From positions 46,696 to 110,695 of the forward strand of contig JAQTSO010000002.1 in NCBI GenBank assembly GCA_028711215.1: DNA of 64,000 bases, read 5' to 3'. The notes below the pieces were generated by a model. That model ran no database searches. It was not told the DNA's origin and saw only the letters and a program-made list of their open reading frames with translations. The position numbers were made by a program, and so were the translations under genes. This document shows, piece after piece, positions 4,938 to 11,913 of the stretch (position 1 is the stretch's first letter; each line of letters opens with the position of its first letter). The DNA comes from Endomicrobiaceae bacterium. Its GTDB lineage: Bacteria > Elusimicrobiota > Endomicrobiia > Endomicrobiales > Endomicrobiaceae.

Positions 4938-6560
4938 ATGGCGGAACTAAATTATTGTAAATATACACAAACATTTCTTGAAAAGGCAAACAGCGGCATA
5001 ATATTTTTATTTATAGCTGTAGTATATATTATTTGCAATTTTATTTGGTGGCAGTCAAATACTCCGGTTATCCCGGCAGGGGGATCGGCAGAATATTTTA
5101 TTTATGTTTTTAGAGGCAAAGGATTATCTTTGCATTATATTGCTCCGTTAGTAACGTGGATAATGAGAGGAATGTTTGGTGTTTTTGGTCAGAAATATTT
5201 TGATTTGCAAATTATATTTGTAAATTATATTTTCTTTTTAATCCCGTTATATTTTATATATAAGATAGGAACGGAGTTAAAAGATAGAGAAACCGGCAGA
5301 ATAGCAATGATGTTATTTGCTTTGACGCCTGCAGTATATGGAATGACCAGACAATACGGTCATCATGATTATCATATAATAGCCGGCATAACATTTAATA
5401 TATACTGTTTAATAAAAACAAATTATTTTACTGATAGAAAATGGTCCATAATATACGGGATATCAACAGGGATAGCTTTATTGATAAAAGATTTTTTTGC
5501 AGTGTATTTCTTTGCCCCGTGGCTGTACATGGCAATACAAAGTTTAAAAGAAAAGGGATGTAATAGACATATAATTATTAATATTTTACTGGCGATAGGG
5601 GCAGGTTCTTTGATAGCAGGAATCCATTACTTCAGATTAGGCATAATTATGAAGATGTTGTATGATCCTATAAGCAATTCAACACCGATATTTTTATTTG
5701 AAAATATGCGGGCAATGACAATTGGTTTATACGAAGAACTTTTGTCGCCGCCATTATTTATACTTTTTTTAGTTGGGTTTGTATGGTTTATATGGAAATA
5801 TAAAAATAAGCGTAATAAAATTATAATGTTATTATGGTTTTTAACGCCTTGGACAATAATATTTTTTATGCCGCAACATAAAGTGTCGGAGTGGGGGGCC
5901 GGTTTCATCCCCGCAATAATTTTAATAACCTCGGTTTATTTATCAAATATTAAGATAAAAAATATGAAAATTTTGATTTTATCGTTGATGTTGTTAATAG
6001 GGGTTTTGCAATTATACGTTTTTTCTTACATGCCCGAAAGAAATTTTTTAAATATTGGTTTTAAATTTAAAAATCATTATATTAGTTATTATAATAATAA
6101 ATTTAATTATTATGATGCGGTTACGGCAAAAAATATGTATGATCTGATATCTTATATAAAAATCAAATATCCTAAAGAAATTTTTTATGTAGAAATTACC
6201 GATTATGAGGCCAATAGAATTCTAGAAATGCTTGCAGCTAAAGAAAAAATAAAAATGTTTGCGCTTGAAGATTGGATATGGAATAATTCTTTTAACGGGA
6301 TTAGTAAAATAAAATATATAATTTTTATCGGTAAAAAAATCACGACAAACGACAGAATAAATGTTTTTATGAAACTATATGATCAAGAGCTCAGGCTGTC
6401 ACAAAAGACTCCGCGGGAAGAATATTTAAATTCAATTAGAAATATGATGGAAAAATTTGGTAAAACAATTGAGCAGGACTTTAAAACTGTTGAAATATGG
6501 CATCCTGAAAATGATGAAGAGAACTTAGGAGTTGAGTTTCTAAAGAGAATTAAAGAATAA
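4938..6560 (+). CDS. GT39-like (PMT/ArnT superfamily) membrane glycosyltransferase
   Basis: 540 residues from ATG 4938; an in-frame TTG at 4926 exists, but AGGA just before 4938 favours the ATG. About ten membrane segments fill residues 15-370, followed by a soluble C-terminal region of about 150 residues. The early loop with NTPVIPAGGSAEYFIY and the later stretch YGMTRQYGHHDYHIIAG have the layout of dolichyl/polyprenyl-phosphate-sugar:protein mannosyltransferase relatives (PMT_2), which transfer sugars from lipid carriers outside the membrane. The acceptor is unknown. It lies between dnaX and recR, with no functional link visible. Confidence 0.65.
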   Translation: MAELNYCKYTQTFLEKANSGIIFLFIAVVYIICNFIWWQSNTPVIPAGGSAEYFIYVFRGKGLSLHYIAPLVTWIMRGMFGVFGQKYFDLQIIFVNYIFFLIPLYFIYKIGTELKDRETGRIAMMLFALTPAVYGMTRQYGHHDYHIIAGITFNIYCLIKTNYFTDRKWSIIYGISTGIALLIKDFFAVYFFAPWLYMAIQSLKEKGCNRHIIINILLAIGAGSLIAGIHYFRLGIIMKMLYDPISNSTPIFLFENMRAMTIGLYEELLSPPLFILFLVGFVWFIWKYKNKRNKIIMLLWFLTPWTIIFFMPQHKVSEWGAGFIPAIILITSVYLSNIKIKNMKILILSLMLLIGVLQLYVFSYMPERNFLNIGFKFKNHYISYYNNKFNYYDAVTAKNMYDLISYIKIKYPKEIFYVEITDYEANRILEMLAAKEKIKMFALEDWIWNNSFNGISKIKYIIFIGKKITTNDRINVFMKLYDQELRLSQKTPREEYLNSIRNMMEKFGKTIEQDFKTVEIWHPENDEENLGVEFLKRIKE

Positions 6561-7267: not shown

Positions 7268-7846
7268 ATGAGAAAAATTAAAAATTTTAAAATAAATATC
7301 AGACCGAGAGAAATTTCAAGGATAGTCCGCAAACTCATAAATGTTTCCGAGCTTAGTATTGATATTGAAGAATCAGTACAAAGAGCATGTTATTTTTACG
7401 GTAAAACAATAAATCCCGCAGTTGTATATGAAACATTTTCGAAAGATACGACAACATTTGTTTTTGATAATCCGGAAATACCAAATAAATGGGTGGCAGC
7501 CAGTTATTATATTCTTACAATAGGCAATACTTTGAAAGAAGAATTTGAAAAAAAACAGGATATTTTTGGGCAATATACAACCCAAATAGTTTCTGCAATA
7601 TCTGCAGACACATTAGAACAATCAAAAAGTTTTGTTCAAAAACTTGTAATATCCGAGGCAAGTGACGAGCAATGTGAATTATCAAGAGGGATAGAGCTTC
7701 CTGCCGATAAATATAATGATATTTGTGAAATTCTCCCGATAGAGAAAATTAATGTTTCAATATCAGAAGACGGGAAGTTTTTGCCCGAATATACAGTGGC
7801 AGGAGTTTTTTATTGGATTCCGGTAAAGAGAAGAAGTAAAAAATAA
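7268..7846 (+). CDS. MetH activation domain-like protein (tentative)
   Basis: 192 residues, no signal peptide or membrane segment. The central stretch (TIGNTLKEEFEKK, then TTQIVSAISADTLEQ) and the later CELSRGIELPADKY resemble the reactivation domain of cobalamin-dependent methionine synthase, which in some bacteria is a separate small protein; the CELSR region would correspond to the substrate/AdoMet contact loop. The C-terminus VFYWIPVKRRSKK is basic. Family assignment is by pattern only. It follows recR after 89 bases that hold no other gene. Confidence 0.5.
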   Translation: MRKIKNFKINIRPREISRIVRKLINVSELSIDIEESVQRACYFYGKTINPAVVYETFSKDTTTFVFDNPEIPNKWVAASYYILTIGNTLKEEFEKKQDIFGQYTTQIVSAISADTLEQSKSFVQKLVISEASDEQCELSRGIELPADKYNDICEILPIEKINVSISEDGKFLPEYTVAGVFYWIPVKRRSKK

Positions 7847-8450: not shown

Positions 8451-9713
8451 ATGGTAAAAATTTTTTTAATAATTTATAACTTATTTCTTTTAATTTTTCT
8501 TGTCCCGATACTTTTGGGGATAGTTTTATCCGGGAAGAGAAACAGGAAAGATTTTTTTTACTGTATAAAAGAAAGGCTTGCCTGTTATGATATGCCTCAG
8601 TTGGATAAAAATAAAAAAACCGTATGGATTCATTGTGCTTCTCTGGGTGAGGCAAGAGCTGTTGAACCTATGATGGACAAATTGCAAGAGTACAATGTTG
8701 TTATAACTGCAATCACAAAATCTGCCAGAGAATATATTTCTAAATTAAAATCAGTTGATTTTTATGCATTGGCTCCTGTAGATATATATCCGTTTGTCGC
8801 AAAAGTTATTAAAAAAATAAAACCGGATATGTTGCTCCTTATAGAGACTGAATTTTGGCCCAGTCTTCTTTACTGTGCAAATAAATCAAATGTAAAAATA
8901 GTTACGGTTAACGGCAGACTTTCCAAAAGTGCATTTCCTTATTATAAATTGTCATCATTTTTTTGGAGAAAGTTTTTAAATTTAATTTCGCATATATTGG
9001 TGAGAAATGAGCAGGATTATGAAAGATTCATTAAAATAACGGGGTCGTCAGAAAAAATTAAAATAACCGGTAATATTAAATATGACAGGGACTGGACTAA
9101 CGAAAAAACAAACAGAGAAAGTTTGGGTTACCGTAACGATGATTTAATTTTGATTGCAGGAAGCACAAGAAAGGACGAAGAGAAAATTTTGTTAAATGCT
9201 TTTGAAAAATTAAAAAACAAATACAATAATTTAAAATTAATAATAGCACCCAGACATATATCAAGGGTCAATGAAATAGTTAATATTATACAAGAAAAAA
9301 AATTAGAATATTCTTTGTTTTCAACCATAAACAAAAACAATAATAAAAATGTTTTAATGTTAGATGTTTTTGGTAAGTTGCAAATGTTATATTCAGTATC
9401 AGACATAGTTTTTATAGGCGGGTCTATTATAAAAAAAGGCGGACAAAATCCGATAGAACCGTCAGCATACGCCAAACCGACAATTTTCGGCAAATATATG
9501 TATAATTTCGATACTGAATCAAAATTGTTAAAAGATGCCGGTGCATCTTTTGAAGTGTCTGATGAAAATGATTTGCAGGTAAAAATAGATCAGTTACTTG
9601 CAGATAAACAATTGAGAATAAGTATGGGGCAAAAATCATTGAAAGTTGTTGAAAATCAAACGGGTGCAATAAATAAAAATATAGGGATCATAAAGAAATA
9701 TATAGATGAATAA
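8451..9713 (+). CDS. waaA: 3-deoxy-D-manno-octulosonic acid (Kdo) transferase
   Basis: 420 residues, normal for WaaA/KdtA. The enzyme adds Kdo from CMP-Kdo to the lipid A precursor at the inner face of the inner membrane. Visible: an N-terminal membrane anchor at about 3-25, the GT30 N-domain with IHCASLGEARAVEPM and IETEFWPSLL, the TVNGRLS motif, and the C-terminal nucleotide-sugar site with GGSIIKKGGQNPIEPSAYAKP. AAGGA lies upstream of ATG 8451. It overlaps the next gene, another LPS function, by 8 bases, so the two are probably co-translated. This is direct evidence for an LPS-type outer membrane. Confidence 0.95.
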   Translation: MVKIFLIIYNLFLLIFLVPILLGIVLSGKRNRKDFFYCIKERLACYDMPQLDKNKKTVWIHCASLGEARAVEPMMDKLQEYNVVITAITKSAREYISKLKSVDFYALAPVDIYPFVAKVIKKIKPDMLLLIETEFWPSLLYCANKSNVKIVTVNGRLSKSAFPYYKLSSFFWRKFLNLISHILVRNEQDYERFIKITGSSEKIKITGNIKYDRDWTNEKTNRESLGYRNDDLILIAGSTRKDEEKILLNAFEKLKNKYNNLKLIIAPRHISRVNEIVNIIQEKKLEYSLFSTINKNNNKNVLMLDVFGKLQMLYSVSDIVFIGGSIIKKGGQNPIEPSAYAKPTIFGKYMYNFDTESKLLKDAGASFEVSDENDLQVKIDQLLADKQLRISMGQKSLKVVENQTGAINKNIGIIKKYIDE

Positions 9714-11385
9714 ATTAAAAATACTATCATTTATCGGATGGATTGCAGTCAGAATTATAGGCAAAACATTCAGAATAAGAAAAATAAAAATTGTTGACAT
9801 TGACAAAGTTCAAAGTGTTTGTGCCTTTTGGCATGGGGATTTAATAACGTCGTTTTATGTTAACAGAAATAAAAATGCTGTTGTTATGATTAGTATGTCA
9901 AAAGACGGTGAAATTCAGGCTAATGTAGCAAAATATTTTGGATATATCCCGGTCAGAGGTTCTTCATCAAGAGGAGGCAATAAAGCTTTGGCTGAAATTG
10001 TAAGATATGCAAAAGAAGGTTATATAACCGGATTTGCAGTTGACGGACCAAAAGGCCCTATTCATAAGGTTAAACCGGGAGTATTATTTGTTTCACAAAC
10101 TTTGGGCATTCCTGTTGTGCCGATTTGTGCAGTTGCAAGCAGAGTAAAGATTTTGGAAAAATCATGGGATAAATTTAAAATCCCGATGCCGTTTTCAAAA
10201 GTAATAATGATTTACGGTAGCCCTATTAAAATAGGACCGGAAGACAATCTTGAAGAAAAAGCAATTGCAGTAGAGGACGGATTGAATAAAATAACAGATT
10301 TTGCAAATGATTATGCCTGGACTAAGAATATAAAAGATTATTTAAAACATCATCCCCAACCCAAAATTTTAATAATTCAGCCGAGCAGAATGGGCGATGT
10401 TATATTTGCACTTCCGGCAGTAAATGCAATAAAAAAACAATACCCTCATGCACATATAAGCTGGATAGTTGATGAAAGATGTGCCGGTATATTAAAAGGC
10501 AACGATTTAATTGATGATTTAATTATTTTTGACAGAACAAAAATTTCATTATCATACGTCATAAAATTTTACAAACAATTGAGAAAAAACGGCTATGACC
10601 TGAGTATAGATTTTCACGGTTTATTTAAATCTGCGTTTATTGTGAAACTTGCAGGAGCAAGATTTAAACTTGCATCATCATCAACAAACGGCATGAGAGA
10701 ACTGTCATGGTTATTTTCAAAAGAAATAAAGCCGAAATCCGTTGATTCTCACTGTATAGAAAGACATCTTGCAGTTGCAAAATACCTCGGATGTCCCACA
10801 GAAAATTTTGAATATGGTTTAAATGTTGCCCAAGAAGAAATTGAAACTCTTAAAAAACGTCTGGAACAAGAAAAAATAGATTTGAATAAAAAAATTGTGG
10901 CAATTCATCCCGGTGGCGGTTGGATTTCAAGAAGATGGCAAACCGAAAAATTTGCACAACTTATAGATTTAATAAAAGCAAAATATAATGTGAATATTGT
11001 TTTAGTCGGAGGTAAAGAAGGCGGAGCAAGTGAAAAGGGATTAAATGAAGAGATTATATCGCAGGCTAAAACAAAAGACATTATTGATTTAACGGGTAAA
11101 CTTCAGCTTAAAGAACTGATGGCATTTTTGAAAATTTGCAATTTGTTTATTGCCAATGAAGCAGGTCCTATGCATATAGCAACAGCTTTAAATACAAATG
11201 CAATTGCTATTTTGGGTCCGACAAATGCTAAAAGAACAGGTCCTTTTAAAGGCAATACCGTTATCATGCAAAAGAAGGTTGAATGTCAGCCTTGCAGAAA
11301 CAGACAATGCATAAAAGTTGATTGCATGAACCTGATATCTGTTGAAGAAGTTTTTGAATCAGTTGTTAGAAAACTTGGAGCGTAA
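9706..11385 (+). CDS. Fusion protein: DUF374 acyltransferase + GT9 heptosyltransferase
   Basis: 559 residues with two separable domains. Residues 1-210 match the DUF374 branch of the lysophospholipid acyltransferase family: FWHGDLITSFY holds the HxxxD-like motif, then SKDGEI, PVRGSSSRGG and AVDGPKGP. Residues about 222-559 form a GT9 heptosyltransferase (WaaF/WaaC type): ILIIQPSRMGDVIFALPA, IDFHGLFKSA, AIHPGGGWISRRW and NEAGPMHIATAL. No stop codon or frameshift lies between them. The GT9 part would add ADP-heptose to the LPS core; the acyltransferase part may acylate lipid A or the core. Overlap with waaA supports a joint role in LPS assembly. Confidence 0.85.
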   Translation: MNKLKILSFIGWIAVRIIGKTFRIRKIKIVDIDKVQSVCAFWHGDLITSFYVNRNKNAVVMISMSKDGEIQANVAKYFGYIPVRGSSSRGGNKALAEIVRYAKEGYITGFAVDGPKGPIHKVKPGVLFVSQTLGIPVVPICAVASRVKILEKSWDKFKIPMPFSKVIMIYGSPIKIGPEDNLEEKAIAVEDGLNKITDFANDYAWTKNIKDYLKHHPQPKILIIQPSRMGDVIFALPAVNAIKKQYPHAHISWIVDERCAGILKGNDLIDDLIIFDRTKISLSYVIKFYKQLRKNGYDLSIDFHGLFKSAFIVKLAGARFKLASSSTNGMRELSWLFSKEIKPKSVDSHCIERHLAVAKYLGCPTENFEYGLNVAQEEIETLKKRLEQEKIDLNKKIVAIHPGGGWISRRWQTEKFAQLIDLIKAKYNVNIVLVGGKEGGASEKGLNEEIISQAKTKDIIDLTGKLQLKELMAFLKICNLFIANEAGPMHIATALNTNAIAILGPTNAKRTGPFKGNTVIMQKKVECQPCRNRQCIKVDCMNLISVEEVFESVVRKLGA

Positions 11386-11391
11386 AATATT

Positions 11392-11913
11392 ATGGGACAA
11401 ATAAACAATCCGAATTTATCAAAGTTTTTCTGCGGTTTACTTTTTCCGGCGACATACAATGTTAACGAAATTTATAAATTACTGGAATCAAAATTCCAAG
11501 ATGATATTGATATCAAAAGTGACATAATCGATTTTAATTTTACAACTTACTATAATCACGAAATGGGCGATAATTTAAAAAGACAATGGGTATCTTTTAA
11601 AACTTTATTAAATCCCGACAGACTGGCGGATATTAAAATAATGACAAATTATATTGAAGACGGTCTGGCGAAAGATAATAAAAGAATAATAAATATCGAT
11701 CCGGGATATTTAACGCTTGCAAATGTTATACTTGCCTCAACAAAAGATTTCAGTCACAGAATATATTTATCAAAAGGAATATATGCGGAAGTAACGACAA
11801 TATATAAAAAAGACGGTTTTATAAAATTGCCTTGGACTTATCCTGATTATCTCTGCCCTACCGCAACAAATTTTATGATAAAAGCCAGACAATGTTTGTT
11901 CAACCCGAGATAA
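11392..11913 (+). CDS. DUF4416 family protein
   Basis: 173 residues, about full length for DUF4416. Family-typical stretches are FCGLLFPATYN near the N-terminus, FTTYYNHEMGDNLKRQWVSF, IMTNYIEDGLA, INIDPGYLTLANVILAS, HRIYLSKGIYAEVT and LPWTYPDYLCP. No signal peptide or membrane segment. The biochemical function of the family is not known to me. It lies 6 bases after the LPS fusion gene and 4 before an MFS transporter, so it belongs to the same transcription unit. Confidence 0.85.
   Translation: MGQINNPNLSKFFCGLLFPATYNVNEIYKLLESKFQDDIDIKSDIIDFNFTTYYNHEMGDNLKRQWVSFKTLLNPDRLADIKIMTNYIEDGLAKDNKRIINIDPGYLTLANVILASTKDFSHRIYLSKGIYAEVTTIYKKDGFIKLPWTYPDYLCPTATNFMIKARQCLFNPR

Follow-up and report, generated by a model that had tools for sequence, protein, structure and literature searches.

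The fusion gene and its neighbours

The window analyzed here is a 64,000-nucleotide stretch of an Endomicrobiaceae genome (GenBank assembly GCA_028711215.1, contig JAQTSO010000002.1, positions 46,696 to 110,695). It contains a gene in which an acyltransferase and a heptosyltransferase are joined in one reading frame, situated in a same-strand run behind waaA. The features of the locus are as follows, with positions given in the window and residues numbered in the fusion protein:

8451-9713, + strand: waaA/kdtA, lipid IVA Kdo transferase (Pfam PF04413, E 1.5e-46)
9706-11385, + strand: LpxJ-type acyltransferase-GT9 heptosyltransferase fusion gene, ATG start, 559 aa, conserved in relatives
9706-10245, + strand: LPLAT/DUF374 (LpxJ-like) domain, residues 1-180 (Pfam, conservation, fold matches to PlsC/PatA/LpxM)
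Residues 3-19: N-terminal hydrophobic helix of the LPLAT/DUF374 domain
9829-9834, + strand: candidate active-site residues W42 and H43 (roles from PMC6148475)
9904-9906, + strand: candidate active-site residue D67 (role from PMC6148475)
10042-10044, + strand: candidate active-site residue D113 (role from PMC6148475)
10165-10170, + strand: candidate active-site residues W154 and D155 (roles from PMC6148475)
10246-10356, + strand: helical linker, residues 181-217, without a conserved internal start codon
10357-11382, + strand: GT9 heptosyltransferase domain, residues 218-559 (Pfam, NCBIfam, alignment, PDB fold matches)
10396-10398, + strand: D231 of the GT9 domain, aligned with the Gly-Asp motif of E. 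coli WaaC/WaaF
11392-11913, + strand: DUF4416 protein gene, next in the run (Pfam PF14385, E 1.2e-54)

The fusion frame is uninterrupted over 559 codons with zero internal stops, and its start overlaps the 3' end of waaA by 8 nt. DUF374 (PF04028) was matched at residues 52-118 (E 1.8e-25; 88.8 bits against a cut-off of 26.8) and Glyco_transf_9 (PF01075) at residues 286-536 of the same frame (E 6.9e-45; 153.7 bits against a cut-off of 22), while the NCBIfam heptosyltransferase II model TIGR02195 spans residues 220-553 (144 bits, above the cut-off of 134.6). The preliminary description of the locus, in which a single frame overlapping waaA encodes an LPLAT-family acyltransferase and a complete GT9 enzyme, is therefore correct in its coordinates and its domains. 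A structure model of the whole protein (pTM 0.89, pLDDT 88.3) joins the two domains by helices at residues 182-203 and 209-215.

The waaA product matches NCBIfam family PRK05749, with a score below the cut-off. Between recR and waaA is a 192-aa open reading frame (7268-7846) with no Pfam match. The position in the operon is conserved, as WaaA is encoded immediately 5' of the fusion gene in 28 of the 29 relatives examined. It was not seen beside the fusion in a Praeruminimicrobium-like genome (L009/L038), where the upstream gene is an open reading frame with a radical-SAM-like cysteine motif, or in Candidatus Endomicrobiellum dinenymphae and pyrsonymphae (L042 and L046), where the fusion is intact and no WaaA is detectable within 6 kb upstream.

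The fusion gene is the only DUF374 gene in the genome, and a second copy that might confer redundancy was not found there. The genome also contains one LpxL/LpxM-family gene, LpxK, and, on another contig (L153), a second GT9 gene whose best match is heptosyltransferase I. In many relatives this second GT9 gene lies directly 3' of the fusion, and in the GT9 tree it constitutes a separate clade. With a sole DUF374, one LpxL and a second GT9, the genome likely relies on LpxL and the fused LpxJ domain for secondary acylation, and the core is likely built by two or more GT9 enzymes.

The junction across the Endomicrobiales

The closest named relative of the fusion protein is that of Candidatus Proruminimicrobium quisquiliarum (76% identity over the full protein), followed by that of Candidatus Praeruminimicrobium (73% identity). 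Both genera are placed in the Endomicrobiaceae, phylum Elusimicrobiota (PMC11257099). The fusion is present in 32 of 42 other Endomicrobiales genomes; 30 of these copies are full length, one is a 610-aa version (G006) and one is interrupted by a contig end (G016). In seven of the remaining ten genomes the parts are separate or a GT9-only form occurs, and in three the gene is cut or decayed. Among named Endomicrobiales loci, gathered by a contig scan that relied on GT9 motifs alone and would pass over fusions with a divergent GT9, the fusion occurs in 48, and WaaA is followed directly by a GT9-only gene in 11; two further loci from termite symbionts are decayed and one is cut (L097). The fusion is thus common to nearly the whole order.

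Selection was estimated by comparing the window gene with that of a congener (G001). The acyltransferase domain gave dN 0.23 and dS 1.72, the linker dN 0.36 and dS 1.75, and GT9 dN 0.10 and dS 1.29; as dS is near saturation, the dN/dS ratios are rough. These values point to purifying selection on the LPLAT domain, the linker and GT9 alike, and with dN well below dS through the linker, the junction itself appears to be kept as protein. A dead or decayed half in the window gene is rejected on the same grounds, together with the retention of its catalytic residues. In 30 fusion genes, the 45 codons that precede the P-S-R-x-G-D motif of GT9 contained no conserved internal start codon. Five of the 30 have no start codon at all in that stretch, and the window gene has TTG at -33 only.

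The preliminary description had named two circumstances that would undo its reading: that a frameshift or assembly error joins two genes, or that the architecture is already common. The assembly is admittedly fragmented (168 contigs, estimated contamination 8.78%), but dozens of genomes, assembled independently and drawn from several families of the order, share the same junction, as in the counts given above, and purifying selection runs through it. We therefore rule out an artefactual joining of two neighboring genes, the chance of which we consider negligible. As far as searched, the architecture is common only within one order, the Endomicrobiales.

Some Endomicrobiaceae, termite endosymbionts among them, have a disrupted or eroded fusion (L091, L098, and G023:C1 near 821630-822370, L138). 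Key LPS genes have been reported in most genera of the family and as absent in many endosymbionts (PMC11257099), and the decayed copies fit this reported loss. A contig labelled Planctomycetota (L101) was considered as an independent fusion and set aside. Its 79-residue piece (5380-5616), at the contig end, is 51% identical to the linker and the start of GT9 and stands behind unrelated sequence with no acyltransferase before it; the contig is probably mis-binned or chimeric.

The two halves and their families

The DUF374 family corresponds to LpxJ, a group of late acyltransferases of lipid A (PMC6148475), so the acyltransferase half belongs to a family of known function. In Helicobacter, Campylobacter, Wolinella and Rickettsia, LpxJ takes the place of LpxM and attaches the 3' secondary acyl chain of lipid A, and mutation of R. 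typhi LpxJ shows that W60, H61, D86, D132, W172 and D173 are needed (PMC6148475). All six have counterparts in the window protein, matched by motif and spacing: W42, H43, D67, D113, W154 and D155. Across 29 fusions, D155 reaches at least 90% conservation and the other five residues do not vary. As in LpxJ, the active histidine H43 lacks an HX4D motif and is followed by GDLIT. A model of the LPLAT domain alone (pLDDT 88.7) was compared with the PDB, and all nine matches with E<=0.001 were PlsC, PatA or LpxM. From this we infer that the domain is likely a late lipid A acyltransferase, with the secondary acyl chain most likely placed at the 3' position. It resembles described LpxJ enzymes (PMC6148475) in a PF04028 score above the cut-off, the six residue counterparts, the lack of HX4D and the presence of one LpxL-family gene without a second. 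It differs in that described LpxJ is a stand-alone protein, whereas the Endomicrobiales domain carries a C-terminal heptosyltransferase.

The GT9 half aligns with E. coli WaaF and WaaC and keeps the Gly-Asp motif, and its fold matches in the PDB are 3tov, 1psw (WaaF) and 2h1h (WaaC). Scores for TIGR02193 and TIGR02195 are close, the fused form being above the cut-off for TIGR02195 only. For the GT9 copy of the split form described below, TIGR02193 gives 151.4, which is under the cut-off of that model, and TIGR02195 gives 150.2, which exceeds its own. GT9 members can use other nucleotide-sugars. The most plausible activity, judging from these matches, is transfer of heptose from ADP-heptose onto the Kdo core. 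The HldE kinase domain (TIGR02198) is present in the genome with 387.7 bits (cut-off 345), and the supply of ADP-heptose was judged from HldE alone. Like WaaC and WaaF (TIGR02193/TIGR02195, PF01075), the domain is a full-length GT9 with matches to 1psw/2h1h in sequence and fold; unlike them, it is fused behind an acyltransferase.

Origin, fission and predicted role of the fusion

DUF374 is a separate gene of about 220 aa in the outgroups checked. In one of them (L142) the gene order is secD-secF-unknown-DUF374. Neighbors able to fuse exist, since a GT9 gene comes straight after the stand-alone DUF374 gene in family f12 (L140, L141), and the stand-alone gene in f9 (L152) comes after a 431-aa open reading frame comparable to WaaA in size. 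In two other families of Elusimicrobiota, f18 and f20, Pfam searches on L124 and L131 showed that a single frame of at least 625 aa unites DUF374 with WaaA, and DUF374 lies in frames of more than 620 aa in all five genomes sampled from these families. These loci are:

L124:1300-3201: DUF374-WaaA fusion
L131:1306-3183: DUF374-WaaA fusion
L130: DUF374-WaaA fusion

In the domain trees, the Endomicrobiales fusions group together in both halves. One stand-alone f9 sequence is nested in the LPLAT clade, but its branch is long and its placement unsure. Since the LPLAT tree places the DUF374-WaaA proteins outside the Endomicrobiales clade, they are, by phylogeny, a separate fusion. Both architectures join an LpxJ-type domain to an enzyme of a neighboring step acting on the same lipid, but the partner in f18 and f20 is a Kdo transferase rather than GT9. 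The LpxC-FabZ fusion of Bacteroidetes likewise combines two enzymes involved in making lipid A or in supplying that route, and differs in its enzymes and in acting at an earlier step. GT9 genes in f13 and f14, further families of Elusimicrobiota (L146:6211-7746, L142:6043-7500), have N-terminal extensions of ~140-170 aa that match nothing in Pfam and in which no resemblance to the LPLAT domain was detected.

In rumen genera the fusion is split into two genes:

L134:3814-4746, L136:3632-4543 and L150:1413-2330: acyltransferase genes with a GT9 stub
L135:3373-4440, L137:3022-4092 and L151:916-1980: GT9-only genes behind waaA

The acyltransferase gene still includes the linker, followed by a GT9 remnant of about 90 residues that no longer has the PSRxGD motif. 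The GT9-only gene stands behind waaA, at the ancestral place of the fusion, and in its own domain tree each piece is placed within the ruminant clade. The simplest reading is that the split appears to have arisen by duplication of the fusion followed by complementary loss. Each half keeps its own catalytic motifs and decay is confined to the redundant stub, which suggests that both activities are wanted. The split also indicates that the fusion, and any coupling that it provides, is dispensable in at least one lineage.

We propose that the gene probably encodes a bifunctional, membrane-anchored enzyme of late steps, with LpxJ-type secondary lipid A acylation in one domain and core heptosylation in the other. 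We infer the activity of both domains, the acyl position, the sugar, the membrane topology and any kinetic coupling. The N-terminal domain, through an H43/D113 dyad, would add a secondary chain to lipid A, with the 3' position as the most likely site, and the GT9 domain would add heptose from ADP-heptose to the Kdo core just made by the neighboring WaaA. Both steps would have the same lipid as substrate and take place on the cytoplasmic side of the inner membrane, where the hydrophobic first helix of the acyltransferase would hold the otherwise peripheral heptosyltransferase. A single gene product would also fix the ratio of acyltransferase to heptosyltransferase. The fusion may serve for anchoring and a constant stoichiometry more than for channelling. 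In Epsilonproteobacteria, LpxJ can precede WaaA (PMC6148475), which means that acylation and heptosylation need not be consecutive.

The suggestion that the fusion links late lipid A and core steps agrees with the waaA adjacency, the LpxJ-type residues, the heptosyltransferase fold and HldE. The coupling of the steps that was read into it is less secure, a kinetic hand-over between the two active sites being only a possibility. A lipid A variant, also suggested at first, is not required, as LpxJ, LpxL and a heptosyltransferase make up an ordinary pathway.

Two other accounts of an intact fusion gene were weighed. The protein could be bifunctional and yet acylate another position of lipid A or another membrane lipid, or its GT9 domain could transfer a sugar other than heptose. 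Membership of DUF374 is a matter of sequence and only a few members have been tested, sequence does not reveal the acyl position or the GT9 donor, and a literature search yielded no description of lipid A from Elusimicrobiota. This account is nevertheless unlikely, given the adjacency of waaA across the order, the related families in which DUF374 is fused to WaaA itself, the occurrence of the sole DUF374 beside a single LpxL, and the presence of HldE. Alternatively, the fused frame might yield two proteins through an internal start or proteolysis, making the fusion merely a means of co-expression. That the halves can work apart is shown by the rumen genera, but the lack of a conserved start near GT9, with none at all in five of 30 genes, and a linker that is under purifying selection and modelled as ordered helices at high confidence make this second account very unlikely. 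The bifunctional late-step enzyme is the reading that we prefer.

Both halves are known enzymes and the architecture is a lineage-specific variant; in the open-access literature we found no paper on a DUF374-GT9 protein or an LpxJ-WaaA fusion. The lipid A pathway as such is unchanged by the finding, which names a likely late lipid A acyltransferase for the phylum Elusimicrobiota. It is conceivable, though unlikely, that Elusimicrobiota have repeatedly tied LpxJ to core glycosyltransferases, GT9 in the Endomicrobiales and WaaA in two other families, because a single membrane machine performs both steps on one lipid molecule; acylation would then take place after or with the addition of Kdo or heptose, unlike the LpxJ that acts before WaaA. 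The rumen genera offer an apparent case of gene fission by duplication and complementary loss in which the remnant is still visible. The fused, differently fused and re-split versions constitute a natural set for testing the order and physical coupling of acylation and core glycosylation.
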